Shown piece after piece: positions 7,090 through 43,444 of a stretch of DNA of 46,118 nt. The notes below the pieces were generated by a model. It ran no database searches. It saw only the letters and a program-made list of their open reading frames with translations, and was not told where the DNA came from. The position numbers and the translations under genes were made by a program. The DNA lies in the IMG/VR virus record IMGVR_UViG_3300033997_000296, positions 1 through 46,118 of that record, one strand, 5' to 3'. This DNA is from a virus. Numbering within the stretch: the first letter of the stretch is position 1; every line of letters starts with the position of its first letter.

Positions 7090-7319
7090 TGGACGGTCCG
7101 GATCGGCTTCCTCCCCCAAATCCAGAAAAAGCCGCGACGATGCGGCGTTTTGATGCTCTCCCGGCCGATGCCCGCCGCGCCATTTCTGGTGCGGCTTTCC
7201 AGTTTCATCCGCAGGCGGCCGAAAAGATGCTCGCGCGCGGAATGAGTGGCAAGCGTGTCGGCGAAAAGCTGAAGGCGTCGGATCACCGGAACTATGTTCG
7301 GACGGAGCCTAGCCGATGA
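7089..7319 (+). CDS. Small hypothetical protein
   Basis: 76 residues, rich in Ala, Arg and Pro, with FDALPADARRAISGAAF and a basic tail (GKRVGEKLKASDH). Its ATG shares a base with the stop codon before it (TGATG at 7087-7091), and its own stop overlaps the next ATG. It is a member of the early rightward operon. Nothing in it points to a function. Confidence 0.55.
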   Translation: MDGPDRLPPPNPEKAATMRRFDALPADARRAISGAAFQFHPQAAEKMLARGMSGKRVGEKLKASDHRNYVRTEPSR

Positions 7320-8668
7320 TCCTCGAACCAAAGAAAAAGATTGCCGTCGCCCGGCACATTGAAAAGATCATCATCGGAACCCGGCTGCGCAATCTGGATG
7401 AAGCCAAAGTGCTTTCGTTCATGGATTCAATCAAAGCGGTTGGTCTTAAAACCCCTATCACGGTTTATGGCGATGAGGCGGATGCGACGGTTCGCCTTAG
7501 CGCCGGCGGTCATCGTCTGGAAGCGTGCACCAGGTTGGGCATGTCAACCATTCTCTGCTTTCATGAGCAGGGCGACGATACGGATCGCGAGCTATGGGAA
7601 ATTGACGAGAACCTCATCCGCTCCGATTTGAGTGTCGCCGAGCGCGCTTTGTTCATGGCTCGGCGCAAAGAGCTGCATCTCATCAAGTACCCGGAAACGG
7701 CTAAAGGAGTTGCGCAGGCTCTGGCCTCAAACGCTGCGCAGGGACGTGGCGGACAAGTTGTCCGTGACGCCAAGTCGTTTGCCGCCGCAACTGCCGAGGC
7801 GACTGGTAGGGATGAACGTTCCATCCGGCGCGATGTCGAGCGTGGCGAAAAGATTTCCAAGTCCGCAATTCAGCAGCTCATCGGCACCCGACACAACAAC
7901 GGGGTGACGCTCGATCATCTTAAAAAGATTGAGACGCCCGAAGCGCAGGAAAGCTATGTCCGCGCGCTGCTCGCTGCTGACAAGGCGGTGAAGGCGGAAA
8001 ACAAGGTCGTTCGCAATGCCGAGCGCGCAAGTAGTCGGGCATCACGCCTTCGGATGATCAGCCTGATTGCTGAGCAGGGCCGCAGGTCCACGGCCGAAAT
8101 GCCGCGTGCGGCGTATTCGGTTGGTTATGCTGATCCGCCATGGAAGCAAGAGGCTTGGAGCGACGAAACCGGGCAGGACAAGGGGCTTCCTTACCCTCCT
8201 ATGCCGGTAGAGGAAATCAAGGCGCTCTGCGCTGGCGACAAGTCGCCGTTTACACGCGATGCGGTGCTTTATCTTTGGGTGACCGCCAATCGCCTGCCTG
8301 ACGGCATCGCCGTGCTTGAAGCTTGGGGCTTTGAATACGTCACCTGCATGGCTTGGGACAAGGTCAACATCGGCATGGGTCGATGGGTTCGGGATCGTCA
8401 CGAACTGCTGTTGATCGGCAAGCGCGGCTCCATTTCGATGGCGCCTTTAGAGGGCACCCAGCCAGCCAGCCTACACTGTGAGGCCAAGACCGAGCATAGC
8501 CGCAAACCAGTTTGGTTCGCCGAGCAGATTGATAGGTTGTGGCCCGATCTGCGCAAGCTTGAACTATTCCAGCGCAAAGAAAGTCTGGCCGAAAGCGATA
8601 TCCGACTCAACGGCCTATGGGATTTTTGGGGCAATCAAGCCGGCGCGCCGGAAGGCGGTGCGGCATGA
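7316..8668 (+). CDS. ParB-domain / MT-A70 adenine-N6 DNA methyltransferase fusion
   Basis: 450 residues in two parts. Residues about 5-120 are a ParB/Srx-type nuclease-like domain (MDSIKAVGLKTPITV, then SAGGHRLEACTRLG, then ENLIRSDLSVAERALFMARR). Residues about 260-440 are an MT-A70 methyltransferase with the DPPW motif at 273-276 and a second block YLWVTANRLPDGIAVLEAWG. It should transfer a methyl group from S-adenosylmethionine to adenine N6 in DNA. This ParB fusion is seen in other phages and is not the plasmid partition ParB. The stop codon overlaps the start of the cytosine methylase gene. The target sequence is not known. Confidence 0.85.
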   Translation: MILEPKKKIAVARHIEKIIIGTRLRNLDEAKVLSFMDSIKAVGLKTPITVYGDEADATVRLSAGGHRLEACTRLGMSTILCFHEQGDDTDRELWEIDENLIRSDLSVAERALFMARRKELHLIKYPETAKGVAQALASNAAQGRGGQVVRDAKSFAAATAEATGRDERSIRRDVERGEKISKSAIQQLIGTRHNNGVTLDHLKKIETPEAQESYVRALLAADKAVKAENKVVRNAERASSRASRLRMISLIAEQGRRSTAEMPRAAYSVGYADPPWKQEAWSDETGQDKGLPYPPMPVEEIKALCAGDKSPFTRDAVLYLWVTANRLPDGIAVLEAWGFEYVTCMAWDKVNIGMGRWVRDRHELLLIGKRGSISMAPLEGTQPASLHCEAKTEHSRKPVWFAEQIDRLWPDLRKLELFQRKESLAESDIRLNGLWDFWGNQAGAPEGGAA

Positions 8669-10455
8669 ACGCTCATGTTGGTGCACTTTTCGCAAGCACG
8701 CTTTTGGCCGCAACGCCTGCCATCGGCCCAAATGGACCGTACATCATAGACAGCTTCGCGGGTGGCGGCGGCGCTTCGACGGGCATTGAGCAAGCGCTTG
8801 GCCGGTCGCCAGACTATGCCATCAATCACAATGCTCTGGCGCTTAGGCTGCATGAGGAAAATCACCCGAACACAATTCACCTTTCGGAAAACGTCTACAA
8901 GGTCGATCCGCTAGACCATCTGCGCGGCAAGCATATTGGACTGGCGTGGTTCTCGCCTGACTGCAAGCACTTCAGCAAAGCCAAGGGCGGCAAGCCTGTA
9001 GAGCGGAATATCCGTGACCTTTGCTGGATCATTCCCGGCTGGATTGAACGCATCCAGAAAAGCGGCGGCAAGGTCGATGTCGTCATGATGGAGAATGTCG
9101 AGGAATTTAAGGATTACGGCCCGCTCATCATGACCCCGCGCGGCCTAATGCCTGATCCTGAAAAGAAAGGGCAAAGCTATCGGAAGTGGTGCAAGGCCAT
9201 CCGCAAGCTTGGGGGCAAAATGGAAAGCCGCGAGCTGCGCGGGTGCGACTATGGCGCGCCGACGATTCGCAAGCGGTTGTTCATCATCATTCGTTTTGAC
9301 GGCCAGCCCATCGTCTGGCCGGTGCCAACGCATGCCCGTCCGGATGATCCGGAAGTAATTGCCGGCCGCAAGCTCCCGTGGCCTATCGTCGGTGACTGCA
9401 TCGACTACAGCATTCCTTGCCCTTCGATCTTCGACACATCCAGCGAAATCAAGCAAAAGCACGGCGTCATCGCAAAGCGTCCTTTGGCTGATAATTCACT
9501 GGCACGGGTTGCGCGGGGTTTTGACAGGTTCGTGTTGCGGGCCGGCCGTCCGTACCTGGTCAACCTTACACACGGCGGTCGTGTCGAGGATTTGGGTCAG
9601 CCGGCGCGCACTATCACGGGCGCTAAGAGAGGGGAAAAAGCGCTTGTCGCTCCTGTCCTGACCTATGCCCAGCAGGGCGGCGCTAATCGCTCTGTCAAGA
9701 CGCCAGCGCACACGATCACAGCCAGCGGCAAAGATCAGAATGCCGTCATCTGCGCGTTCATGGCCCAGCACAATAACGATAGCCGGCGCATCGGGGGGGT
9801 AAATCCGGGGCGGCCGGCGTCTGCGCCTTTGTCGGCCGTCACTCAAACCGGAAGCCATCAGCAGCTCGTAGCCGCATACGTGGCGCGGGATTTCGGAACC
9901 TCTACCGGCCACAGCATGAAACAGCCTTGCGGCACTGTAATGCCGGAAGGGCAGGGCAAAAGCCGTCTGATACTGCCGTTCCTTCAATCCTATTACGAGA
10001 CTGGCGAAGGTTCGCGCGGCGATGAGCCGATGCGGACCGCGACTTGTAAGGCGCGCCACGCTCATCTTGAGGCAGAAATTGGCATTCCGCCATTCACGGA
10101 GGCGCAAGCAGCTCGCGCGCGGCAGGTGGCGGATTTCATGCGGTCCCATGGCCTTTGGGATGATCGCGAGTTCGTCACGCTGGATATCGACGGCCTGACA
10201 TTTGTTGTTGTCGATATCGGCATGCGTATGCTCACGCCCCGCGAGCTTTACACGGCGCAGGGCTTCCCGGCTGATTACAAGATCGATGGTTACTATGATC
10301 GCTCGCAGATAGGCCATAATGGCGGCCCGGCGTGGGTTCCCTTCACAAAGGAAGTGCAGATTTCCTGTGTTGGAAATAGCGTTTGCCCGCCCGTGGCAAA
10401 GGCGCTCGCGGCGGCAAACTGCAATCACCTCGCGGTCAAGGCGGTCGCCGCATGA
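8665..10455 (+). CDS. DNA cytosine-C5 methyltransferase with a repeat-built middle region
   Basis: 596 residues from ATG 8665, which overlaps the stop before it (ATGA). Motif I is IIDSFAGGGGASTGI; motif IV carries Cys100 in WFSPDCKHFS, where the usual Pro before the Cys is Asp; motif VI is MMENVEEF (142-148); motif VIII is TIRKRLFI; motif X is SCVGNSVCPPVAKAL. Between VIII and X, at Pro 313, 347, 388, 421 and 455, five units of about 34 residues share a P-x-x-T-[IVA]-type core followed by a hydrophobic strand. This region is where C5 methylases normally read DNA. It should modify phage DNA and may hide it from host restriction. Confidence 0.9.
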   Translation: MNAHVGALFASTLLAATPAIGPNGPYIIDSFAGGGGASTGIEQALGRSPDYAINHNALALRLHEENHPNTIHLSENVYKVDPLDHLRGKHIGLAWFSPDCKHFSKAKGGKPVERNIRDLCWIIPGWIERIQKSGGKVDVVMMENVEEFKDYGPLIMTPRGLMPDPEKKGQSYRKWCKAIRKLGGKMESRELRGCDYGAPTIRKRLFIIIRFDGQPIVWPVPTHARPDDPEVIAGRKLPWPIVGDCIDYSIPCPSIFDTSSEIKQKHGVIAKRPLADNSLARVARGFDRFVLRAGRPYLVNLTHGGRVEDLGQPARTITGAKRGEKALVAPVLTYAQQGGANRSVKTPAHTITASGKDQNAVICAFMAQHNNDSRRIGGVNPGRPASAPLSAVTQTGSHQQLVAAYVARDFGTSTGHSMKQPCGTVMPEGQGKSRLILPFLQSYYETGEGSRGDEPMRTATCKARHAHLEAEIGIPPFTEAQAARARQVADFMRSHGLWDDREFVTLDIDGLTFVVVDIGMRMLTPRELYTAQGFPADYKIDGYYDRSQIGHNGGPAWVPFTKEVQISCVGNSVCPPVAKALAAANCNHLAVKAVAA

Positions 10456-11009: not shown

Positions 11010-12227
11010 ATGAGCGAAAACAGAACACGAAAGGAGCAATCGCGGATGTGGCGGTGGCGTTGGGCAATCGGTAATTCCGATCTGCCGGCGACGACGCGCG
11101 ACGTTCTGCGCGTGCTCTCCGAATTCATGAACCGCGAGGGCGACCGTTGCTTTCCTCCCATTGGCGACCTGGTCGAAAAAAGCGGGCGTGACCGCAAGAC
11201 AATCCGGATTCATCTGCGTGCTGCCGAAGAAAAAGGCTGGTTGCGGGTGGAAAGCGCTGGGATGAAGGGTCAAAAATGGCGTCAAAAGAAGTACGTTGCA
11301 CGCTGGCCAGACGGCTACAGCCATCCAGAATTATTGCAGCAAGGTGGCGGCGTCATGCCCTCACCTTATGACGATGCCAGCACTGGCGAGGTGGGGGAAT
11401 TGCGCCCCGAAGCTGGGGGCGCTGCGCCCCATAAGCTGGGGGCAGAGCGCCCCCTCTATAATAACTCTCCACTTACCTCTCCAATTAACTCTCCAGAAAG
11501 AGGCGCGGGCGAGCGCGCACTGACGCCAACAGAGCGAAAGCGGATAAACCGCGAGTTTGAGCGGTGGAAACCGACTTGGCCGCGCCACGAAGATTACAGC
11601 CGTGACGAGGCGAAAGCCGAATGGGACAAGCTGGCTGACGCGGATCGGCGTGACTGCATCCGCTTGACGCCATCGTATCTCAGGTGGATTGAGGGCAGGG
11701 TGAAGCCCTACAGCCCAGCCATCTACTTGCGAAAAAAGGCATGGAAAGAGCTGCCACCCGCGAGTGGTCCGGTTGCGAAAGTGCCGGCAAAATCATTTTC
11801 CAATCTCTGGATGGCGACATGGCTTGAAATGCTTTTGACGGCCTCAAACCAGCCAATCCGGTTGGCGCCTATCGAAAAGATCATGGTCGATTCCGGCCAA
11901 AAGTCTTTTGAGGAAATCAGCCGCAATAAGCTGATTGACTACTGCGCAAGCGTTGTCGAGGGGATGCTTTTTGCCGCCAGACGGCGCGAACCTTGGCGAT
12001 GCTCCACGTTTTTGGAGCCGATTTCCGAACGGTTCCAATGGGTCGCGCCTGATAGCGAGCTGCTGGCGGCGTGGAAGCGTCTGCACGAACGTCGATGCTG
12101 GCCGTGGTTCTCATGGGTGCCGCCTATGGGCATGCGCTTTCCGCCCGTCGATCCGGACGAAACCAATCTCGATACGGCTGTTGAGGCCGCTATCACCGAA
12201 TTTGAAACACAGATTAGCAAGGTTTGA
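11010..12227 (+). CDS. Helix-turn-helix replication-type protein (lambda O-like position)
   Basis: 405 residues. Residues about 18-100 form a winged helix: LPATTRDVLRVLSEFMNREGDRCFPPIGDLVEKSGRD, then KTIRIHLRAAEEKGWL and a basic wing. The layout FP.I..L....G...T...H...AE..GWL is the one seen in phage replication-initiation proteins. A Gly/Pro-rich linker (about 110-165) leads to an all-alpha C-terminal domain. It sits near the end of the early operon, where phage replication genes usually lie. It may start lytic replication, separate from the plasmid-type rep gene at 56-916. No helicase or primase motif is present. Confidence 0.6.
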   Translation: MSENRTRKEQSRMWRWRWAIGNSDLPATTRDVLRVLSEFMNREGDRCFPPIGDLVEKSGRDRKTIRIHLRAAEEKGWLRVESAGMKGQKWRQKKYVARWPDGYSHPELLQQGGGVMPSPYDDASTGEVGELRPEAGGAAPHKLGAERPLYNNSPLTSPINSPERGAGERALTPTERKRINREFERWKPTWPRHEDYSRDEAKAEWDKLADADRRDCIRLTPSYLRWIEGRVKPYSPAIYLRKKAWKELPPASGPVAKVPAKSFSNLWMATWLEMLLTASNQPIRLAPIEKIMVDSGQKSFEEISRNKLIDYCASVVEGMLFAARRREPWRCSTFLEPISERFQWVAPDSELLAAWKRLHERRCWPWFSWVPPMGMRFPPVDPDETNLDTAVEAAITEFETQISKV

Positions 12228-12232
12228 CGCGG

Positions 12233-12892
12233 ATGCGGGGAAAGAAATCAGGGGCGCAAGTGGACGTTTGCGCACAAAGCGAGCCATCGGAATGGCAAAA
12301 AAGGCGCATGACGCGACGGCTCCGACTTGCAATGCAGCAACTCAGCGCCGCCGCCATGGCGCGTTTCGAGGATGAGCCGACAAGGGCAAAATGGTTCTGC
12401 ATGGCGGTCTTTGGGGGCCGGGAACTGACGCTCGAACAAAACCTCAAAGATGCCGGCGTTGACGTTTTCGTGCCACGCGAGCGTTGGACGGCTGTGAAAA
12501 AAGGGGTGAAGGTCGAAGGCGAAAGCGCGCTTCTGCCCGGTTACATGCTGGTTAGGGTGCTGCCCTCGGCCGAAGCGTTCTTTGGGCTGAAACTGCAAGA
12601 GGGCGTGGTGGATTTCGTGGGCGGTTCCACGGGCTATTACGAAGTCCGGCTGGCTGATGTTACGAAGCTGAAGGCCATCTGCGACACGAACGATGTAAGC
12701 CGCATGGCCGTTGATCGTTCGATAGGGCAGGGCAGCAAAGTTCAAATCACCCACGGGCCTTTTGCCGGTCATGATTGCGTCGTGGTGCAGGTAACAGCCG
12801 CCAGAAACGCCAGAGCAACCGTTTGGATTGAGGCTTTTGGGGATCGTTTAAAGCCCGTCACACTGCCGCTTGCATTTCTGAAAAAGGTGTGA
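12233..12892 (+). CDS. Phage-encoded NusG/RfaH paralogue, candidate antiterminator
   Basis: 219 residues from ATG 12233; a TTG at 12224 that overlaps the previous stop is an alternative start. After a basic leader, residues about 50-105 match an NGN domain (KWFCMAVFGGRELTLEQNL, VFVPRERW, LLPGYMLVRV). The C-terminal part is a KOW domain: GSKVQITHGPFAGHDCVVVQV, then LPLAFLKKV. NusG proteins bind RNA polymerase and alter pausing and termination. This copy is the last early gene. Next come a 168-base leader with a terminator and then all the late genes, so it stands where lambda Q does. An antitermination role is inferred from fold and position. Confidence 0.85.
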   Translation: MRGKKSGAQVDVCAQSEPSEWQKRRMTRRLRLAMQQLSAAAMARFEDEPTRAKWFCMAVFGGRELTLEQNLKDAGVDVFVPRERWTAVKKGVKVEGESALLPGYMLVRVLPSAEAFFGLKLQEGVVDFVGGSTGYYEVRLADVTKLKAICDTNDVSRMAVDRSIGQGSKVQITHGPFAGHDCVVVQVTAARNARATVWIEAFGDRLKPVTLPLAFLKKV

Positions 12893-13060
12893 GAGTCATT
12901 TGGGCAACGGATATTTCGGATTCGCCACCCTCATATGCCAGCGCTAGACGCTGCCAAAGCTAACCAGACGGTTACAGGGAACAGGCGATCCGGAACCCAG
13001 CCTTGCCGGCCTCGCTTCTGAGGCATCGAGTCAGGGTCGGTGCGATAGCTATGTTTTCAG
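12893..13060 (+). other. Leader region between the NusG paralogue and the late genes
   Basis: A 168-base gene-free stretch ending in the terminator at 13061-13090. It has several small inverted repeats, such as CAGCG-CTAGA-CGCTG near 12938. A short frame from ATG 12934 (28 codons) has no ribosome site, so I do not call it. I could not find a convincing sigma-70 promoter. The layout suits a leader RNA that the NusG-like protein acts on. Confidence 0.4.
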
Positions 13061-13090
13061 AAGGCGACCTTAACCGGTCGCCTTTTGCGT
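13061..13090 (+). terminator. Strong intrinsic terminator ahead of the late genes
   Basis: AAGGCGACC (13061-13069) and GGTCGCCTT (13076-13084) form a perfect 9-bp stem with a 6-base loop, then TTTTGCGTTT. It would stop early transcription before the late genes unless something overrides it. Confidence 0.8.
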
Positions 13091-13122
13091 TTGTATAGGG
13101 GTAATTTCCCGGAGGCACGGCC

Positions 13123-13695
13123 ATGTCTGGTGTTTTGACGATCAAATGGGCCGACAGAAACCTTGCCAAGTACGGCAAGCGCCTTCAGGCGCTGAATGCG
13201 CAATTCCCGAAAGTCTTGCCGCGCATCGTCAACCAGGTGGGCAACCGCTCGAAAACGGTTGTCATCCGTGAGCTGACGAAACAGACCGGCTTGCCAAGGC
13301 AGGTTATCGTCAAGGCTATTGGCAATCCTGCGGCAGCTCGGCCCGGTCGGTATGTCTACGATATGACGACGCGGGGCGGAAACATTCGCCTCAAGTATCT
13401 TCGGCCGAAGGAAACGCCGGCTGGCGTGGTGGCAAGGCCATTCGGCAAGGCAACGCTTTACCCCGGCACTTTCATGCGGGGCGGCTTGTTCCCGGATCGC
13501 AAAGAGGTTCCGAAGTTCAACGGGCACGTTTACTACCGGCTGAATTCGTCGGGCAGTAAAATCACCTTCGCGCGGTCGGGTGTCTTCATTCCCGTGGAAA
13601 TGTCCACGGGCGCAACAGCCGCCGCCTTCCATCGGATCGCCGCGCCGCTCCTCGATCAACGTGTCTCGGCGGTGCTTGATAAGCTGGTCCCGTGA
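13123..13695 (+). CDS. Lambda Z-like minor tail protein
   Basis: 190 residues, close to lambda gpZ (about 190). Recognisable features are the basic N-terminal helix region (NLAKYGKRLQALNAQFPKVL), the VVIRELTKQTGLPRQVI segment typical of the minor tail Z family, and a C-terminal HRIAAPLLDQRVSAVLDKL helix. In lambda this protein works at the head-proximal end of the tail. Here the gene lies alone before the terminase genes rather than among the tail genes, which is unusual. An AGG-rich ribosome site (GGAGG near 13110) precedes the ATG. It is the first gene after the late terminator. Confidence 0.7.
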   Translation: MSGVLTIKWADRNLAKYGKRLQALNAQFPKVLPRIVNQVGNRSKTVVIRELTKQTGLPRQVIVKAIGNPAAARPGRYVYDMTTRGGNIRLKYLRPKETPAGVVARPFGKATLYPGTFMRGGLFPDRKEVPKFNGHVYYRLNSSGSKITFARSGVFIPVEMSTGATAAAFHRIAAPLLDQRVSAVLDKLVP

Positions 13696-19627: not shown

Positions 19628-20065
19628 ATGGGCACTTTGCCTGTCATGAAATTCCAGCAGACCCCCGGCATGTCCACGCTGCTGAAGAAGGAAGTAGATC
19701 CCGAAATCTCGCGTGCCGTTGGCACCCTGCTTGGCGGCACTGGCGGTAGCGCCCGCCTGGTCAAGCTCGGCCAGCTCGTCGGCCGGATCGCCGGAACCGA
19801 GGAAGCGCCGGCCGGCGACAAGCTCGGCAAGCTGGTCGCATGGGACCCGACCGCGACTGACGGTAGCCAGATCGTGCACGGCGTTTGCCTGAAGGACTGC
19901 GAAGCGCCGGAAGGCGTGGACCGCGTTGACGGTCTGCTCTATTCCCGTCGCTTCTCGGTTCTCAACCGTGCCAACATCGTCTGGCCCGCTGGCGTCACTG
20001 TCGAACAGCAGGCCGCCGCCATCGCAGATATCGAAGACCGCCTCGGCCTGATCCTGCGCGCCTGA
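19628..20065 (+). CDS. Head decoration protein, lambda gpD-like
   Basis: 145 residues. The stretch ARLVKLGQLVGRI, then GKLVAWDPTATDGSQIVHGV, and the C-terminal RANIVWPAGVTVEQQAAAI fit the HDPD/gpD family, which trims and stiffens the expanded head at threefold sites. gpD is about 110 residues, so this one has an N-terminal extension. A strong GAAAGGAAAG site precedes ATG 19628. It lies between protease and major capsid genes, as in lambda. Confidence 0.85.
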   Translation: MGTLPVMKFQQTPGMSTLLKKEVDPEISRAVGTLLGGTGGSARLVKLGQLVGRIAGTEEAPAGDKLGKLVAWDPTATDGSQIVHGVCLKDCEAPEGVDRVDGLLYSRRFSVLNRANIVWPAGVTVEQQAAAIADIEDRLGLILRA

Positions 20066-20104
20066 TCCACCCTTTCCATTAATAGCCGGCCTTTCAGCCT
20101 GCGC

Positions 20105-20133
20105 GCGCGGGACGCGATGTCCTGCGCCTTTTT
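20105..20133 (+). terminator. Intrinsic terminator between decoration and capsid genes
   Basis: GCGCGGGAC (20105-20113) pairs with GTCCTGCGC (20119-20127, one G-T pair), followed by CTTTTTCTTC. It lies inside the late operon, so it probably tunes expression or is read through under antitermination. Confidence 0.6.
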
Positions 20134-20154
20134 CTTCACAAGGAACAATCGGCA

Positions 20155-21210
20155 ATGCCTGAAATCTTGCTGCCTTACTCCAACGTTGAACTCACTGACG
20201 AAGTCAACAAACTGCCGAATACCTTCGGCCTCCTGAACGCGCTCAACATCGCGCCGAGCGAACCGAAGCGTTCGCGCATGGTTCGCATCGACTTCCGCGA
20301 CGGCCAGATCGTCGTTCTCTCGCATCAGGAGCCGGGTGCACCTGGTGAGGTTGCCGGCGATGATGACCAGAACGGCATGATCATTGCGATCCCCCATTTC
20401 ACCCACTTCGAAAACATCCTTGTCGGCGATATCGACGGCATGCTCGAAGTGGTCAACGGCGAAATCACCGAGCGCTCGCTCGACGCCGAGCTTGAACGCA
20501 AGCTTGTCATCATCCGTAAGAACCACGCGATTACCCGCGAGTTCCTGCGGCTGGGCATGCTCCGCGGCGAAATCAAGGACGGCAAGCTTCGCACGCTCTA
20601 CAATCTTTACGACACGTTCGGCGTCGAAAAGAAGGAAATCGATTTCGCGCTCGGGACGGCCGCTACCGATGTCCGCGCCAAGTGCGAGGAAGCAAGCGAC
20701 CACATCATCAGCAATGCCAGAGGCGAAACGGTCGGCGCGGTGGAAGCCGTGGTCGATACGAAATTCTTCTCCAAGCTGATCTCGCATGCCAAGGTCGAAA
20801 AGTTTTGGGTGCAGGCGAATAATTCAGGCCTTCATACAACGCTCGAACGCCAGCGCCTCGGCGGCAATTGGGGCCGCGTCTTCGAATTCGGCGACATTCT
20901 CTTCCGCGAGTACAAGGGCGGTCTGCCGGTCAAAGCGAACGATGGCGCTATCTCGACGGTCAAGAATGTGGATGACAACAGCGGCACGGCCTATCCGACC
21001 GGCACGCAATCCATGTTCCGCACCTATGACGGCCCGGCGTATCATATCGACCGCGTCAATCAGGCGCCTACGGAAGGTGAAGACGGTTCGATCTTCATCT
21101 CGACTAAGGTTCTCGATCACGGAACCGGCCTCGAAATGAAATCGCAGTCCAACATGCTGGCCATCTGCAAGCAGCCTGACTGCCTGGTGCAGCTCAAAAC
21201 CAGCAACTGA
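20155..21210 (+). CDS. Major capsid protein, E family
   Basis: 351 residues, matching the length of lambda gpE (341) and family members. The start (MPEILLPYSNVELTDEVNKLPNTFGLLNALNIAP) and the segments NHAITREFLRLGMLRGEIKDG and VDTKFFSKLISHAKVEKFW are typical of the phage major capsid E fold (an HK97-type shell protein). It ends with MLAICKQPDCLVQLKTSN. An AAGGAAC site precedes ATG 20155. It follows the decoration gene, separated by a terminator-like hairpin, and should be the most abundant head protein. Confidence 0.93.
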   Translation: MPEILLPYSNVELTDEVNKLPNTFGLLNALNIAPSEPKRSRMVRIDFRDGQIVVLSHQEPGAPGEVAGDDDQNGMIIAIPHFTHFENILVGDIDGMLEVVNGEITERSLDAELERKLVIIRKNHAITREFLRLGMLRGEIKDGKLRTLYNLYDTFGVEKKEIDFALGTAATDVRAKCEEASDHIISNARGETVGAVEAVVDTKFFSKLISHAKVEKFWVQANNSGLHTTLERQRLGGNWGRVFEFGDILFREYKGGLPVKANDGAISTVKNVDDNSGTAYPTGTQSMFRTYDGPAYHIDRVNQAPTEGEDGSIFISTKVLDHGTGLEMKSQSNMLAICKQPDCLVQLKTSN

Positions 21211-28630: not shown

Positions 28631-29265
28631 TGAGCGATCCGTATAGCACCGATGATTTGCCCTACGATTTGTCATCGGACGAACTGGCCTTCCTTGTCCG
28701 CAAGCTCCATCCTGCGGCAATCCATGGCGTTGACTTCTGGTGCGCCCACAAGGTGAAGCCAAATAGCCCCGACAGGACCAGCACGGCCATTATCGTCAAG
28801 TGGGATTTGGCGGCTGAGAAGCCGACCCCCGCCGAAATCGAAGCACTGGCGGCCACATATGCCGCCGAGCTGGTAGCGCTTCGCGGGGTGAGCGCTCTCG
28901 ATGTCGATATTGAGCGCGACCGTCGCGTTGAGGCGGGTTTCGTGTTCGATGGAATTCTCTACCAGTCCCGTCCGGAGGACCGTGAGAATATCGCCGGGGC
29001 GGTTAAGGCCGCAACAGATGCGGTTGCTCTCGGAGCTGCGCCCGGTGATTTCGGGTGGCAGCGCCTGCTAGACCCTAATGCGCCACCTGAATTCCGGTGG
29101 ATCGCGGCCGACAACACAACGCAGGCTATGGATGCACAAACCGTCATGCGGTTCGGCTACGCCGCTCTCGGACACAAACAGGCTCATATTCTGGCGGCCC
29201 GCGAGCTGAAGAACATGAACCCGATCCCTGCCGACTTCGCAACGGAGCCGGCTTACTGGCCGTGA
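28630..29265 (+). CDS. DUF4376-type tail fibre assembly protein
   Basis: 211 residues. The C-terminal 110 residues fit the DUF4376 pattern found next to phage fibre genes: RDRRVEAGFVFDGILYQSRPEDRENIAGAVKAA, then FRWIAADNTTQAMDAQTVMRFGYAAL and HILAARELKNM. Such proteins act as fibre chaperones or attached fibre parts. Its ATG shares a base with the fibre stop (TGATG). It ends the fibre block; a short stem (29292-29309) follows. Confidence 0.75.
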   Translation: MSDPYSTDDLPYDLSSDELAFLVRKLHPAAIHGVDFWCAHKVKPNSPDRTSTAIIVKWDLAAEKPTPAEIEALAATYAAELVALRGVSALDVDIERDRRVEAGFVFDGILYQSRPEDRENIAGAVKAATDAVALGAAPGDFGWQRLLDPNAPPEFRWIAADNTTQAMDAQTVMRFGYAALGHKQAHILAARELKNMNPIPADFATEPAYWP

Positions 29266-29291
29266 CGCCTCTCGCGCTTTGACAAACTCCG

Positions 29292-29309
29292 TCCCGCCAT
29301 TCGTGGCGG
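29292..29309 (+). terminator. Weak hairpin after the fibre genes
   Basis: CCCGCCA-TTCG-TGGCGGG makes a stable 7-bp stem with a UUCG loop in the 124-base gap before the sheath gene. No T run follows, so it is either a weak terminator or an mRNA stabiliser. The remainder of the gap shows an AAGGAG ribosome site for the sheath gene and no clear promoter. Confidence 0.4.
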
Positions 29310-29389
29310 GGCGCATCTTCCTGTCCGGTTGTGAAATCGGACCCTGCCTCCCCCCCTTCAAAATCTGAAACTTTCAAAGGAGTCTATAA

Positions 29390-30850
29390 ATGGCTGACCT
29401 GGCCTATGCGCATGGCGTGACCTTGGTTGAAAGCGCGGTAACGCCCTCGCTTCTTCGTGTTCAGCGCCAAGGCATCACTTTCATTAACGGCACAGCACCT
29501 GATGCCGATCCGGCCGCCTTTCCGTTGAACACGCCGACGCTCGTCACTTCTGAGCTGAAAGCGAGCGGCCTCGGCGCGGACGGCACGTTGCTTGAAGACG
29601 TGAAAACTGTTTTCGGCGAAGGCGGATCGTGGTGCATCGTCAACCGCGTGGAGCATAGCGCCGATCCGGCGATACTGCAGGCGAACCTTATCGGCGACCT
29701 GGTCGCTCGAACCGGCATTTACGCGGCACTTCGCGCCAAGGGTCTGACGGGCTATCAACCGCGCGTCATCATCACGGCCGGCAATACTGGCGCATGGGTG
29801 GAAGCCGGCGTCGTATCGGTTTCCGTTGTTGCTGAAGGCTCCAAGCTGACCGAGCCGCCTATCGTGAAAGCTACGGGCGGCGGTAACGATCAGGGCAAGG
29901 AGTTGCCGACGCTGGAAGCCGTCATGGGTGAAGGCGTGAATGCGGATAAGGTTGTGGCAGTCCGTGTTGTTCTGCCCGGCAAGAAGCTTTCGGAACCGCC
30001 TGTCATCACCTTTGAAGGTGGCGGTGCGGACGAGGCAAAGGTGTTGCCGCAGGCGACTGCAAATGTCGGCGACGTTGCAAACCCGTTCGTTTCTGCGTTG
30101 AAGGTCATCACCCCGAAAATTCGCGCCCGCGCCTATATCAATGGTCCGAACACGACTAATGCCGAAGCCCTGCGCTTCCGGCGCACGCTGAATGGACGCA
30201 TCCTGCCGATTGATCCGAAGGTAATCAGGAACGTGAACGGCGTTCCGGTGACAAAGCCGGTCGCGCCCGTTTTCGCCGGCGTGCGGTCGCGCGTGGTCGC
30301 AGGTGATGAGGGTGTGTCGGGTTCGGTTTCGAACAAGATCATCAACACCATCGACGGAGTTGCCCGCACCATCACGTATCCGGATGACGCTAATTACCTG
30401 AACGAAAATCAGGTGGCGACCATCATCAACGAGCGTGGCGGCTTCCGCACCTGGGGTAGCCGTCTGGCCACGGATGATCCTCTTTGGCAGTTTGATAGCG
30501 TTCGCGCCACGGCCGACATGATCAACGAAGCGCTGGAGGATATCTACTTCCTCTACGTGGATCGCAAGTTCACGAAGGCCAATATGAAGATGATGATTGA
30601 GGACGGTAATGCCGCTCTTCGCGTCTTCAAGAATAATGAGGACATTCTTGGTGGCCGTTGCTGGTTCCCTGTGCTGAATGATCCGACACTGATGGCAAAT
30701 GGCAAGCTCTTCCTCGATGTCGAGTTCGAGCCAGTTGGCATCATGGAGCAAATTCACATCACCACTCATCGCAACATTCTCTACTACCGGCTTCTGCTGG
30801 ATGAAGTGAATGGGCTTATCGAAACCGGCCCGCTCGCGGTTGCCGCTTAA
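29390..30850 (+). CDS. Contractile tail sheath protein (P2 FI-like)
   Basis: 486 residues. The opening (MADLAYAHGVTLVESAVTPSL) and the body are those of myovirus sheath proteins: a domain with VKTVFGEGGSWCIVNRVEH, the central RVIITAGNTG...GARAYINGPNT-type part, RLATDDPLWQFDSVRATADMINEALE and the closing HRNILYYRLLLDEVNGLIETGPLAV. An insertion near residues 140-230 (GVVSVSVVAEGSKLTEPPI, repeated later as KLSEPPVITFEGGGADEA) looks like an extra surface domain built from two similar units. The sheath contracts at infection. It is followed 13 bp later by the tube gene. Confidence 0.95.
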   Translation: MADLAYAHGVTLVESAVTPSLLRVQRQGITFINGTAPDADPAAFPLNTPTLVTSELKASGLGADGTLLEDVKTVFGEGGSWCIVNRVEHSADPAILQANLIGDLVARTGIYAALRAKGLTGYQPRVIITAGNTGAWVEAGVVSVSVVAEGSKLTEPPIVKATGGGNDQGKELPTLEAVMGEGVNADKVVAVRVVLPGKKLSEPPVITFEGGGADEAKVLPQATANVGDVANPFVSALKVITPKIRARAYINGPNTTNAEALRFRRTLNGRILPIDPKVIRNVNGVPVTKPVAPVFAGVRSRVVAGDEGVSGSVSNKIINTIDGVARTITYPDDANYLNENQVATIINERGGFRTWGSRLATDDPLWQFDSVRATADMINEALEDIYFLYVDRKFTKANMKMMIEDGNAALRVFKNNEDILGGRCWFPVLNDPTLMANGKLFLDVEFEPVGIMEQIHITTHRNILYYRLLLDEVNGLIETGPLAVAA

Positions 30851-30863
30851 GGAGTAATCAGAC

Positions 30864-31376
30864 ATGGCAGAAAAGATATTGCCTCGCGGCATTTTGCGCG
30901 ACTGCATGTTGTGGGCAGATCGCGAAAGTAAGCTCGGCCAGATTGGCGATATGACGATACCCGTCATCGAGGCAAAGCGTGAAGGCATGCGCAATGCCGG
31001 CATGATCAAAGAGCGTCAAATCCATCTCGGATACAACGCTCAGGAACTTAACTTCAAAATGCCGGGCCTCGATCCGCAAATCCTGAAGCTTCACGGCATC
31101 AAGATCGGCGTGGAAAATCCGTTTCTCATCACCGGTGCGCTGGTCGATGAAGATGGCACCACACACAGCGCAGTCATCTCCATTCGCGCCAAACTTTACA
31201 AAGTGGACCACGGCACTTGGAAGTCCGGCGATCTCGCTGAAAACGATATCAGCGTGGACGTAAATTACTACAAGCTCGAAATCGACGGCGAAGAAATCTT
31301 CGAGATTGATGATTTCGAGTTCAAGGTCGGTGGCGTCTCGCAGAACGGCGACATTCGTAACGCGCTCTTGATCTAA
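30864..31376 (+). CDS. Tail tube protein (P2 FII-like)
   Basis: 170 residues, the same length as P2 FII (172). It opens with AEKILPRGILRDCMLWADRESKLGQIGDMTIPVIEAKREGMRNAGMIKERQIHLG in the normal tube-protein way (given here only as landmarks at residues 2-55) and ends GVSQNGDIRNALLI. It forms the inner tube inside the sheath through which DNA passes. A strong AAGGAG site precedes it. It is followed by a terminator-like hairpin at 31417-31435. Confidence 0.93.
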   Translation: MAEKILPRGILRDCMLWADRESKLGQIGDMTIPVIEAKREGMRNAGMIKERQIHLGYNAQELNFKMPGLDPQILKLHGIKIGVENPFLITGALVDEDGTTHSAVISIRAKLYKVDHGTWKSGDLAENDISVDVNYYKLEIDGEEIFEIDDFEFKVGGVSQNGDIRNALLI

Positions 31377-31416
31377 GGGCGCGTCACTCCCCTCCCGAAA
31401 ATTTCTTTCTTCAGTA

Positions 31417-31443
31417 GGCCCGCTTCGTGCGGGCCATTTCTTT
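31417..31443 (+). terminator. Intrinsic terminator after sheath and tube genes
   Basis: GGCCCGC (31417-31423) and GCGGGCC (31429-31435) form a 7-bp G+C-only stem, followed by ATTTCTTT. It would lower expression of the chaperone and tape-measure genes relative to sheath and tube. Confidence 0.65.
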
Positions 31444-31454
31444 GAGGTTTCACC

Positions 31455-31754
31455 ATGACCGATACCAATACCGCCACCGATAACGAAACCGTTGTCGTTA
31501 CTCTCTCCAAGCCTGTCACCCACGGTGAAGACCGTTATCCGGTTCTGACATTCCGCGAGCCTACCGTGGGCGATCTGATCGTCGGCGACCAGTTCCCCGG
31601 CCAGCTTGCCAAGATGACCGCCATTCTTGCCTCTATCTCTGACACGCCTCTGCCGGCGTTCAAGAAGATCGGCGCAAAGGATTTTTCCAAGATCGTCACC
31701 GCAACGAGCGGCCTTTTGGGAAACGAGAAGAAGAAGGACACGACTGGCGGCTAA
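31455..31754 (+). CDS. Tail assembly chaperone E
   Basis: 99 residues between the tube and tape-measure genes, the place of P2 gene E. It has an N-terminal extension rich in Thr and Asp, then TLSKPVTHGEDRYPVLTFREPTVGDLIVGDQ, the usual two-strand opening of this family, and a helical end (LAKMTAILASISDTPLPAFKKI). It binds the tape measure while the tail is built. Near its 3' end a slippery heptamer allows a -1 shift into E'. Confidence 0.85.
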   Translation: MTDTNTATDNETVVVTLSKPVTHGEDRYPVLTFREPTVGDLIVGDQFPGQLAKMTAILASISDTPLPAFKKIGAKDFSKIVTATSGLLGNEKKKDTTGG

Positions 31755-42461: not shown

Positions 42462-42489
42462 CTGACGCACGTCAACGCATATGCGTCAA
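42462..42489. repeat. TTGACGC-type site cluster 1
   Basis: Contains CTGACGC (42462-42468), ACGTCAA (42469-42475) and GCGTCAA (42483-42489), all variants of TTGACGC or its complement. It is right after the RHH gene. Clusters 2 and 3 lie at 43521-43547 and 44594-44627. Candidate partition (centromere) sites. Confidence 0.6.
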
Positions 42490-42773
42490 TCAACTTTCGC
42501 GCGGTCCATCAACTCTTTCAGGGCTTCCGGGTAGCTCAACCTGTTTTCCATGGCCCACGCAACGAAGCGGTTATATGTCGAGACTGGTGGACGGATATTT
42601 AGATTGGCGGATGGCTCAGCTTCCTTTCTCCTGACAATCTTCTGAATGGGTTCGCGAGATACAAAACCGTGGCGCTCTGCCACCTCGTCCAGCTTGCGGT
42701 CTGAAACGTCGCTTTCTGTCTCGTCGTCTGGTTTGATGCTCGCAAGGCGATTGCCAAATCCAAGGTCTTTCAT
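42486..42773 (-). CDS. Ribbon-helix-helix partner of ParA (centromere-binding protein)
   Basis: 95 residues. A disordered, charged N-terminal part ([22 protein letters not shown]) is followed by a ribbon-helix-helix ([35 protein letters not shown], landmarks at residues 58-92). Small RHH proteins right after a ParA gene are the DNA-binding partners in plasmid partition, with the flexible N-terminus touching ParA. The ATG overlaps the parA stop codon (ATGA). The repeated TTGACGC sites on both sides are its likely targets. Confidence 0.75.
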
Positions 42774-43444
42774 GCGGCGGCTTCCTTCAGTGCAACCATA
42801 TCCACCAATTCGGCTGTAAGTTTCAGAGCGTTGTCCCTCGCTTGGGGCAACCCGTTCACCTCGGCCGGGTCGAGTTCGTCCAGGTCGAGTTGATGAAAGA
42901 ACATGCTCTTATAGGCAGACCGTTCATTCAGATGGTTGATGAATTGGGGAATTTCCCCACCACTGAGCTGTGCGAAAATCTGGCGCTCGATTTTGGTTTT
43001 GATCTGCGGCGACGTGCGAGTGAAAAGCACCCTGTACGGAATGACCTTGTCGAAAGACTCGCCTTCATCCTTGATTAGGTGGATAGCCTTGGCGGCAAGT
43101 TCCGCGTCGGTCGGGCTGGCCTGAATTGGAATGATTGCCAGATGCGCCCTGAATAGCGCACGCGACATGAGCCGGTTGGCGGTTCCTTCAAGGTCGACGA
43201 AAACAAATTGAGACTTACGGCGATGATGATCAAGCTTTTCCTTGAAGCTTTCCTCATCAACGGCGCTATCGACAACCAAAGGATTTTTGGACTCCCCTGC
43301 CCTCCACCCCGCGATTGGTTGGTTGCGGTCGCAATCGAGAACCGTCACCGAGGCTCCCTGGCGAGCAAGCGTAGTTGCTAGAACAAGCGTGGTCGTAGAT
43401 TTTCCCGCGCCACCTTTCGGATTTGCGACTGCGATAACGGGCAT
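42770..43444 (-). CDS. parA: ParA partition ATPase
   Basis: 224 residues, the short ParA type found on plasmids. The deviant Walker A KGGAGKST lies at residues 10-17, the second box VLDCDRNQP at 35-43, and [11 protein letters not shown] at about 80-90. No N-terminal DNA-binding domain is present, as in type Ib systems, in which a separate RHH protein binds DNA and controls the operon. A GGAAGG site precedes ATG. It segregates low-copy plasmids, so it points to plasmid maintenance of this phage. Confidence 0.92.

Follow-up and report, generated by a model that had tools for sequence, protein, structure and literature searches.

A phage NusG paralogue and a conserved leader RNA as a candidate late-gene antitermination cassette in Rhizobiales phages

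RESULTS

A NusG paralogue, a structured leader, and a terminator stand at the early/late boundary

In the 46,118-bp virus record IMGVR_UViG_3300033997_000296, analyzed over its whole length and referred to here as the window, a NusG paralogue is followed by a conserved structured leader RNA and an intrinsic terminator ahead of the late genes (Table 1). It is probable that the paralogue and the leader, an undescribed RNA class of ~150 nt, constitute an obligate RNA-protein antitermination cassette that replaces lambda Q, moves as a unit among temperate phages of the Rhizobiales with unrelated neighboring genes and terminators, and is diversifying in its NusG-leader specificity. The analysis showed the fold of the RNA, its occurrence behind NusG paralogues only, the independent maintenance of the terminators, and the co-inheritance of nusG and leader.

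An earlier note on this DNA had described the last early gene as encoding an NGN-KOW protein, followed by a 168-base gene-free leader, a 9-bp terminator, and then the late genes. Both descriptions were borne out. The protein matched Pfam NusG and PHROG 6386 and was modeled by AlphaFold2 with an NGN domain and a beta-barrel KOW; the span 12893-13060 is exactly 168 bases and the ORF listing contained no plus-strand ORF of ≥50 aa within it; and a hairpin occupies 13061-13086. The genes after the terminator are all on the plus strand and include those for neck/tail completion, TerS, TerL, portal, protease, capsid, baseplate, sheath, and tape measure. The note had also likened this order to the Q-leader-terminator-late gene order of lambda. 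The likeness holds for the gene order, but no PR′-like promoter was detectable between nusG and the terminator. Likewise, its view that the leader has no clear promoter or ops-like element was correct in that no sigma70-like match was found, but a covarying RNA of ~150 nt with a near-invariant 14-nt block is present. The earlier observation is thus confirmed, but it understates the content of the locus.

It is highly improbable that late transcription begins at an ordinary promoter within the last part of nusG and that the leader is a 5′ untranslated region unlinked to NusG. There was a weak excess of sigma70-like matches in the 3′ part of nusG plus leader, 15 of 130 loci compared to 6 to 11 in shuffled sequences. 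However, the window itself showed no sigma70-like site anywhere in 12100-13300, and such a promoter explains neither the terminators nor the co-inheritance of NusG and leader. The first late ATG, with its Shine-Dalgarno sequence, begins only 38 nt past the terminator stem, which leaves little space for a promoter there. Alphaproteobacterial promoters may deviate from the consensus, and a late promoter could still lie inside nusG.

Two other features of the window were apparent. First, a ParA-like partition gene (PHROG 164) lies at 42486-43444 on the minus strand with a small gene downstream, and, within the plasmid collection, the NusG has its closest relative on a circular Agrobacterium plasmid of 46,243 bp (NZ_CP109971.1) that carries capsid and tail genes. 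For these reasons, the window is probably a phage-plasmid. Second, the early region at 7316-10455 contains two DNA methylase-type genes, one MT-A70 (with a ParB-like N-terminal part) and one C5 cytosine methylase, and methylases recur in relatives.

TABLE 1 Features of the early/late boundary in the window
Feature	Coordinates	Strand	Evidence and remarks
Replication initiator-like gene, HTH	11010..12227	+	Profile matches; directly abuts nusG; outside the cassette (similarity independent of nusG)
nusG paralogue	12233..12892 (ORF 12224/12233-12892)	+	Pfam NusG, PHROG 6386, AlphaFold2 (AF2), Foldseek, host NusG alignment
Late leader, conserved structured RNA	12893..13057	+	Leader alignment, covariance model, pairing tests, MFE fold
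P1 5′ arm, UUUCGG	12914..12919	+	Family pairing test; reaches 12921 in MFE fold
Variable subdomain inside P1	12920..12989	+	Locus comparison, MFE fold
Covariance model R1 match, element core	12986..13055	+	54.7 bits; window among the 42 training sequences
P1 3′ arm, CCGGAA	12990..12995	+	Pairs with 12914-12919, one G-U; pairing test, MFE fold
P2 5′ arm, GCCUUGC	13000..13006	+	Helix 1 in family
P3 5′ arm, GCCUC	13009..13013	+	Helix 2; double changes at all five pairs in family
P3 3′ arm, GAGGC	13020..13024	+	Helix 2 in family
P2 3′ arm, UCAGGGU	13031..13037	+	Helix 1 in family
Near-invariant 14-nt block GUGCGAUAGCUAUG	13040..13053	+	2-bp mini-hairpin 13042-13049, then UAUG; candidate pause or ops-like site (ops resemblance by eye only)
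Intrinsic terminator	13058..13087 (9-bp core 13061-13069/13076-13084)	+	Hairpin scan, family comparison; short T tract
First late gene, neck/tail completion	13123..13695	+	PHROG; Shine-Dalgarno GGAGG at 13111

The protein is a NusG paralogue outside the curated families

The product of the ORF at 12233-12892 matched Pfam NusG (E value of 4e-13; 60 out of 60 of its relatives matched this model too) and PHROG 6386 ("transcription antiterminator") with an E value of 2e-58; its KOW motif scored slightly below the Pfam cut-off. The AlphaFold2 model, computed from an alignment with the 60 relatives (pLDDT 91), consists of an N-terminal helical region, the NGN domain, and the KOW barrel, and its Foldseek matches were NusG, RfaH, and the NusG-RNA complex entry 8f5g. 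The protein fulfills the NusG/Spt5 superfamily criteria, namely, the presence of NGN and KOW domains, and its NusG fold rules out membership in the Q protein family. Alignment with the host NusG showed that the helical extension, ~50 aa long and mildly basic (median net charge of +3), is absent from the Rhizobiaceae housekeeping protein. The KOW domain was predicted as beta strands and not as alpha-helical, though this is a single model and a fold switch cannot be excluded.

The scores against the NCBIfam models were all far under the cut-offs: 58.1 bits for housekeeping NusG (TIGR00922, equivalog cut-off of 135.7), 56.5 for LoaP (NF033641, cut-off of 125), 43.1 for RfaH (TIGR01955, cut-off of 144.5), and 65.2 for UpxY (NF033644, cut-off of 100). 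Judged by these scores, therefore, the protein is a NusG-superfamily paralogue that belongs to none of the curated NusG, LoaP, RfaH, and UpxY families.

The leader folds into an RNA supported by covariation

The leader RNA is made up of helix P1, a hairpin formed by P2 and P3, and a small GC-N4-GC hairpin with UAUG after it. Folding the window leader without constraints gave an MFE structure (z = −2.8) that contained P1, P2/P3, the mini-hairpin, and the terminator. The window element is a weak member of its family, with 54.7 bits, one end of P2 unpaired, and a short T tract.

Pairing in the family was assessed in three ways. First, a MAFFT alignment of 42 diverged cores, which was not fitted to any structure and which is the source of the covariance model R1, had 84% of its cells paired and contained 44 double changes compared to 17.9 in shuffled alignments, with 0 of 500 shuffles as high. 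Second, in an alignment of 93 distinct elements, 92% of the cells were paired, with 103 double changes compared to 33.5 when shuffled (again 0 of 500 as high), and sliding the pairing partners left at most 49% paired. This larger alignment was fitted to the structure, and so the unfitted figure from the 42 cores is the safer number. Third, in a test anchored by position, all five P1 pairs were formed in 91 of 121 leaders, compared to a shuffled mean of 20.8 and a maximum of 32, and the arms varied together, for example, as GCUGA/UCAGC, UCCGA/UCGGA, UCUGC/GCAGA, and UGCGG/CCGCA, among others. Covariation thus supports P1, P2, and P3.

No known family accounts for the element. The best Rfam score in the window was 13.5 bits against a threshold of 36.8, and 14 canonical loci gave nothing at E values up to 0.1, the permissive thresholds yielding chance matches only. 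The possibility that P2, often CTTGACAG, is instead a −35 box was rejected, the TTGACA being intact in only 12 of 130 leaders with the pairing kept.

The RNA is found only behind phage NusG paralogues

Relatives were found by tblastn in Rhizobium phage PPF1, in Sinorhizobium phages phi2LM21 and phi3LM21, and on plasmids of Agrobacterium salinitolerans (46 kb, 93% identity), Rhizobium rhizoryzae, and Sinorhizobium medicae. All of them have the order replication initiator, nusG, intergenic leader, and late genes, the last being of differing families. Similarity at the DNA level in the leader extended to Agrobacterium phage Rivra and Nostoc phage Nsp-JY10. The latter is recorded from a cyanobacterium and has a Rhizobiales-type NusG-leader cassette (locus L219), which reflects either wide transfer or a mis-assigned host. 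Searched as DNA against phages, the whole region gave no match, and scans with the single protein retrieved no relative from genome_contigs and one near-identical contig from viral_contigs.

The earlier note had proposed that leaders of related phages be compared for a conserved site. Alignment of the window leader with those of its relatives revealed conserved blocks, and the comparison uncovered the conserved structured RNA. The most conserved block, TCARGGNNNGTGCNNNAGCTATG, was scanned as a search pattern through genome_contigs and viral_contigs. Among the matches listed, there were at least 218 pattern sites, and at least 177 of these followed a NusG paralogue encoded on the same strand, 86 to 182 nt past its stop codon and mostly at a spacing of 126 to 154 or 91 to 95 nt; the remaining ones were chance matches in unrelated bacteria or ends of incomplete loci. 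The RNA therefore has a fixed place after NusG paralogues in at least ~170 Rhizobiales phage and prophage loci. The R1 scores of NusG-adjacent elements, 53.7 to 83.5 bits, did not overlap with those of chance pattern matches, which reached at most 26.7 bits.

A survey with R1, independent of the pattern search in method and not wholly in data (some genomes are common to both), gave 52 matches with E values up to 1e-3 in 398 Rhizobiaceae genomes. In 298 Rhizobiales genomes, only two strong matches were found, which means that the element is not distributed over the whole order. Most of the loci were retrieved, and in the 398 Rhizobiaceae genomes a phage NusG paralogue was immediately upstream in 51 out of 51 retrieved matches of ≥28.9 bits, compared to 0 out of 5 retrieved matches below 26 bits. 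PHROG 6386, used as a genome-wide probe, picks up mostly housekeeping NusG and was excluded from the counts. Each phage examined carries one copy of the element, adjoining nusG.

The survey also recovered variants beyond the search pattern, such as GUGC-UACU-GCUAUG and GUGC-UACC-GCUAUG. These natural variants mean that conservation of the GC-N4-GC-UAUG outline does not depend on the pattern, whereas the exact GTGCNNNAGCTATG in the first set is partly a product of construction. Not every phage NusG locus has the element: the R1 core was absent in L254, L255, L262, L265, L266, and L268, several of which kept a P1-like helix. Four of these leaders (L255, L262, L265, and L266), none with an R1 match, have a GCCGA/UCGGC P1-like helix, then CCCC and another hairpin, and are possibly a second leader class.

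nusG and leader are inherited together

In a set of 83 to 84 nonredundant loci, NusG similarity correlated strongly with leader similarity (Spearman 0.69 to 0.70; Mantel test, 0 of 500), compared to 0.06 to 0.11 for NusG and the adjoining upstream gene and 0.04 for the leader and the first late gene. The median leader similarity was 0.74 for pairs of loci with NusG similarity above 0.5 and 0.36 for pairs below 0.25, and in the former pairs the upstream and late genes were near background similarity. Since the upstream gene abuts nusG and is yet unlinked to it, physical linkage alone does not explain the correlation. The simplest reading of these similarities is that nusG and leader must match each other. 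As NusG tracks the leader and neither tracks its outer neighbor, the two appear by this comparison to travel as one cassette, the outer neighbors being exchanged.

These data also bear on whether the protein is needed. In phage HK022, putRNA acts without a protein (PMC9378689), and the leader is likewise a two-hairpin structured phage RNA ahead of a terminator. It could be that the leader alone binds RNA polymerase and renders it terminator resistant, with the NusG paralogue only modulating this effect or acting as a general processivity factor. We regard this as improbable because the strong co-inheritance with NusG and the absence of the element away from NusG imply a protein partner, and because a constantly active cis-acting RNA would leave no early/late switch.

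Terminators are maintained independently behind the leader

The window hairpin, 13061-AAGGCGACC-TTAACC-GGTCGCCTT-13084, has a perfect 9-bp stem, extends to 12 pairs over 13058-13087, and is followed by TT and GCGTTTG. By itself it is within chance expectation, the scan giving 2 terminator-like matches in 1.2 kb where 2.0 were expected. The family, in contrast, is informative. A terminator-like hairpin was present at most 90 nt downstream of the RNA in 120 of 142 distinct loci, compared to 0 to 2 in shuffled sequences, 2 of 136 at a position 400 nt further on, and 4 of 137 inside nusG. Furthermore, hairpins of several unrelated sequences occupy the same place, for example, GGCGGCC.GGTCGCC, GAGCCCGG.CCGGGCTT, and GAGCGCC.GGCGCTC, and in the relatives they usually stand a few tens of nucleotides ahead of the first late ATG, with a median distance of 17 nt from the hairpin end to the ATG. 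Comparison across loci thus indicates that the hairpin is selected as a terminator and is independently maintained. Other terminator-like hairpins were found in gaps of the late operon of the window, such as those at 20065-20155, 29265-29390, and 31376-31455, as would be expected if a processive antiterminator is needed.

At the threshold used, about 20 of 141 relatives had no terminator within 300 nt, and in those the leader RNA cannot serve a nearby one. Four loci (L199, L204, L205, and L074) retain the element with no terminator seen, and the first late gene may begin within ~20 nt; here, the RNA may act on distant terminators. In L018, a tRNA-like sequence (CAT anticodon by eye) directly follows the element in the place of the terminator.

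Riboswitches, too, usually consist of a structured 5′ leader with a terminator behind it. The leader might therefore sense a ligand as an attenuator or riboswitch, or feed back on nusG as a 3′-UTR small RNA, with the terminator in a mutually exclusive fold. This is hardly tenable, however, as the terminators behind related leaders are unrelated and offer no common alternative pairing, the leader is not inherited together with the late gene, and no Rfam riboswitch was matched. Attenuation by leader-terminator pairing was likewise judged unlikely, given that related leaders precede unrelated terminators.

DISCUSSION

Proposed mechanism

The RNA pairs exclusively with NusG paralogues and covaries, the terminators are maintained, and no late promoter is detectable; all this is best explained by antitermination through a NusG paralogue that the leader RNA recruits. 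We consider it likely that the paralogue is recruited via its own leader RNA and that RNA polymerase then reads through the terminator into the late operon; both the protein-RNA contact and the antitermination are inferred. Early operon transcription would run through the replication initiator gene and nusG into the leader, and most polymerases would halt at the terminator at 13061-13086 before the paralogue builds up. Once accumulated, the paralogue would join the polymerase as P1, P2/P3, and the mini-hairpin emerge, probably during an inferred pause near GUGCNNNNGCUAUG. It may then stay on through its NGN domain, allowing the polymerase to get past the leader terminator, and others after it, and on into the long late operon. 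By this inference, polymerases reading through from the early operon are the likely source of late transcription. The suggestion in the earlier note that a NusG paralogue may be the late-gene switch has thus gained strong comparative support from the recurrent gene order, the NusG-only leader RNA, and the co-segregation, with antitermination itself an inference.

The recruiting step has a serious alternative at the near-invariant block. As in RfaH recruitment at ops (GGCGGTAGCGTG), the paralogue could read the non-template DNA of GTGCNNNNGCTATG in a paused complex, P1 to P3 only slowing or positioning the polymerase. The block ends in TATG; both it and ops can fold into a 2-bp stem that closes a 4-nt loop ahead of TG; and independent variants mostly keep GC-N4-GC-TATG. 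However, the resemblance of GTGCNNNNGCTATG to ops is by eye and in outline only, its invariance comes in part from the search pattern, P1 to P3 covary strongly as RNA, and it is the whole leader, not the block alone, that tracks NusG. Recruitment by DNA is therefore unlikely in our estimate, though it retains a real chance, and recruitment through the leader RNA remains the reading we prefer.

To our knowledge, late-gene switching is unresolved for most temperate phages outside the enterobacteria, and the cassette offers a testable late-switch mechanism for a large group of Rhizobiales phages. More than 100 diverged natural NusG-leader pairs are available in which covariation and swaps can be used to map specificity. 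The RNA model also serves as a simple finder of the early/late boundary and flags prophages in Rhizobium, Sinorhizobium, Agrobacterium, and Brucella-group genomes.

Comparison with known systems

In the literature searched, which mostly excludes subscription journals, no description of the leader RNA, the nusG-leader cassette, or a NusG-based late switch in phages was found. Within that literature, the RNA partner and the Q position are new, and NusG-paralogue antitermination is already known. The protein family itself has been annotated as an antiterminator in the PHROG 6386 phages phiLM21, phi2LM21, and PPF1, and all phiLM21-like prophages carry this annotated transcription antiterminator (PMC12429752).

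Some parallels were apparent. First, in lambda, the gene for the antiterminator Q likewise stands immediately before the PR′ leader, a terminator, and the late genes. Q, however, is not of the NusG type, and it is loaded from a DNA site during a sigma-dependent pause behind its own promoter, whereas the window has an RNA element and no PR′-like promoter was seen. Second, RfaH is also a specialized NusG paralogue that is loaded at one site and carried along a long operon, but the site is the short DNA element ops, compared to a covarying RNA and a KOW predicted as a beta-barrel in the window system. Third, HK022 putRNA is a phage-encoded, two-hairpin structured RNA tied to antitermination; it differs in acting without any phage protein and in serving early operons (PMC9378689). 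Finally, the closest precedent is LoaP of Bacillus velezensis, which binds to a hairpin in the leader and favors read-through at a leader terminator that NusA enhances (PMC12691694). LoaP is likewise a non-housekeeping NusG paralogue, and its dfn/mln leader has an RNA hairpin and an intrinsic terminator before a long operon in which several terminators are read through (PMC12691694). The window matches this arrangement as layout only, with an RNA hairpin and a terminator in the leader ahead of the target operon. LoaP acts in bacterial antibiotic clusters through one small UNCG hairpin, whereas the window system has a phage-encoded protein, a larger RNA with P1 to P3 and a hairpin that is not of the UNCG dfn type, and nusG directly upstream of its target. 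If the proposed mechanism is true, it would provide a second example in which a NusG paralogue has a leader RNA as its partner.
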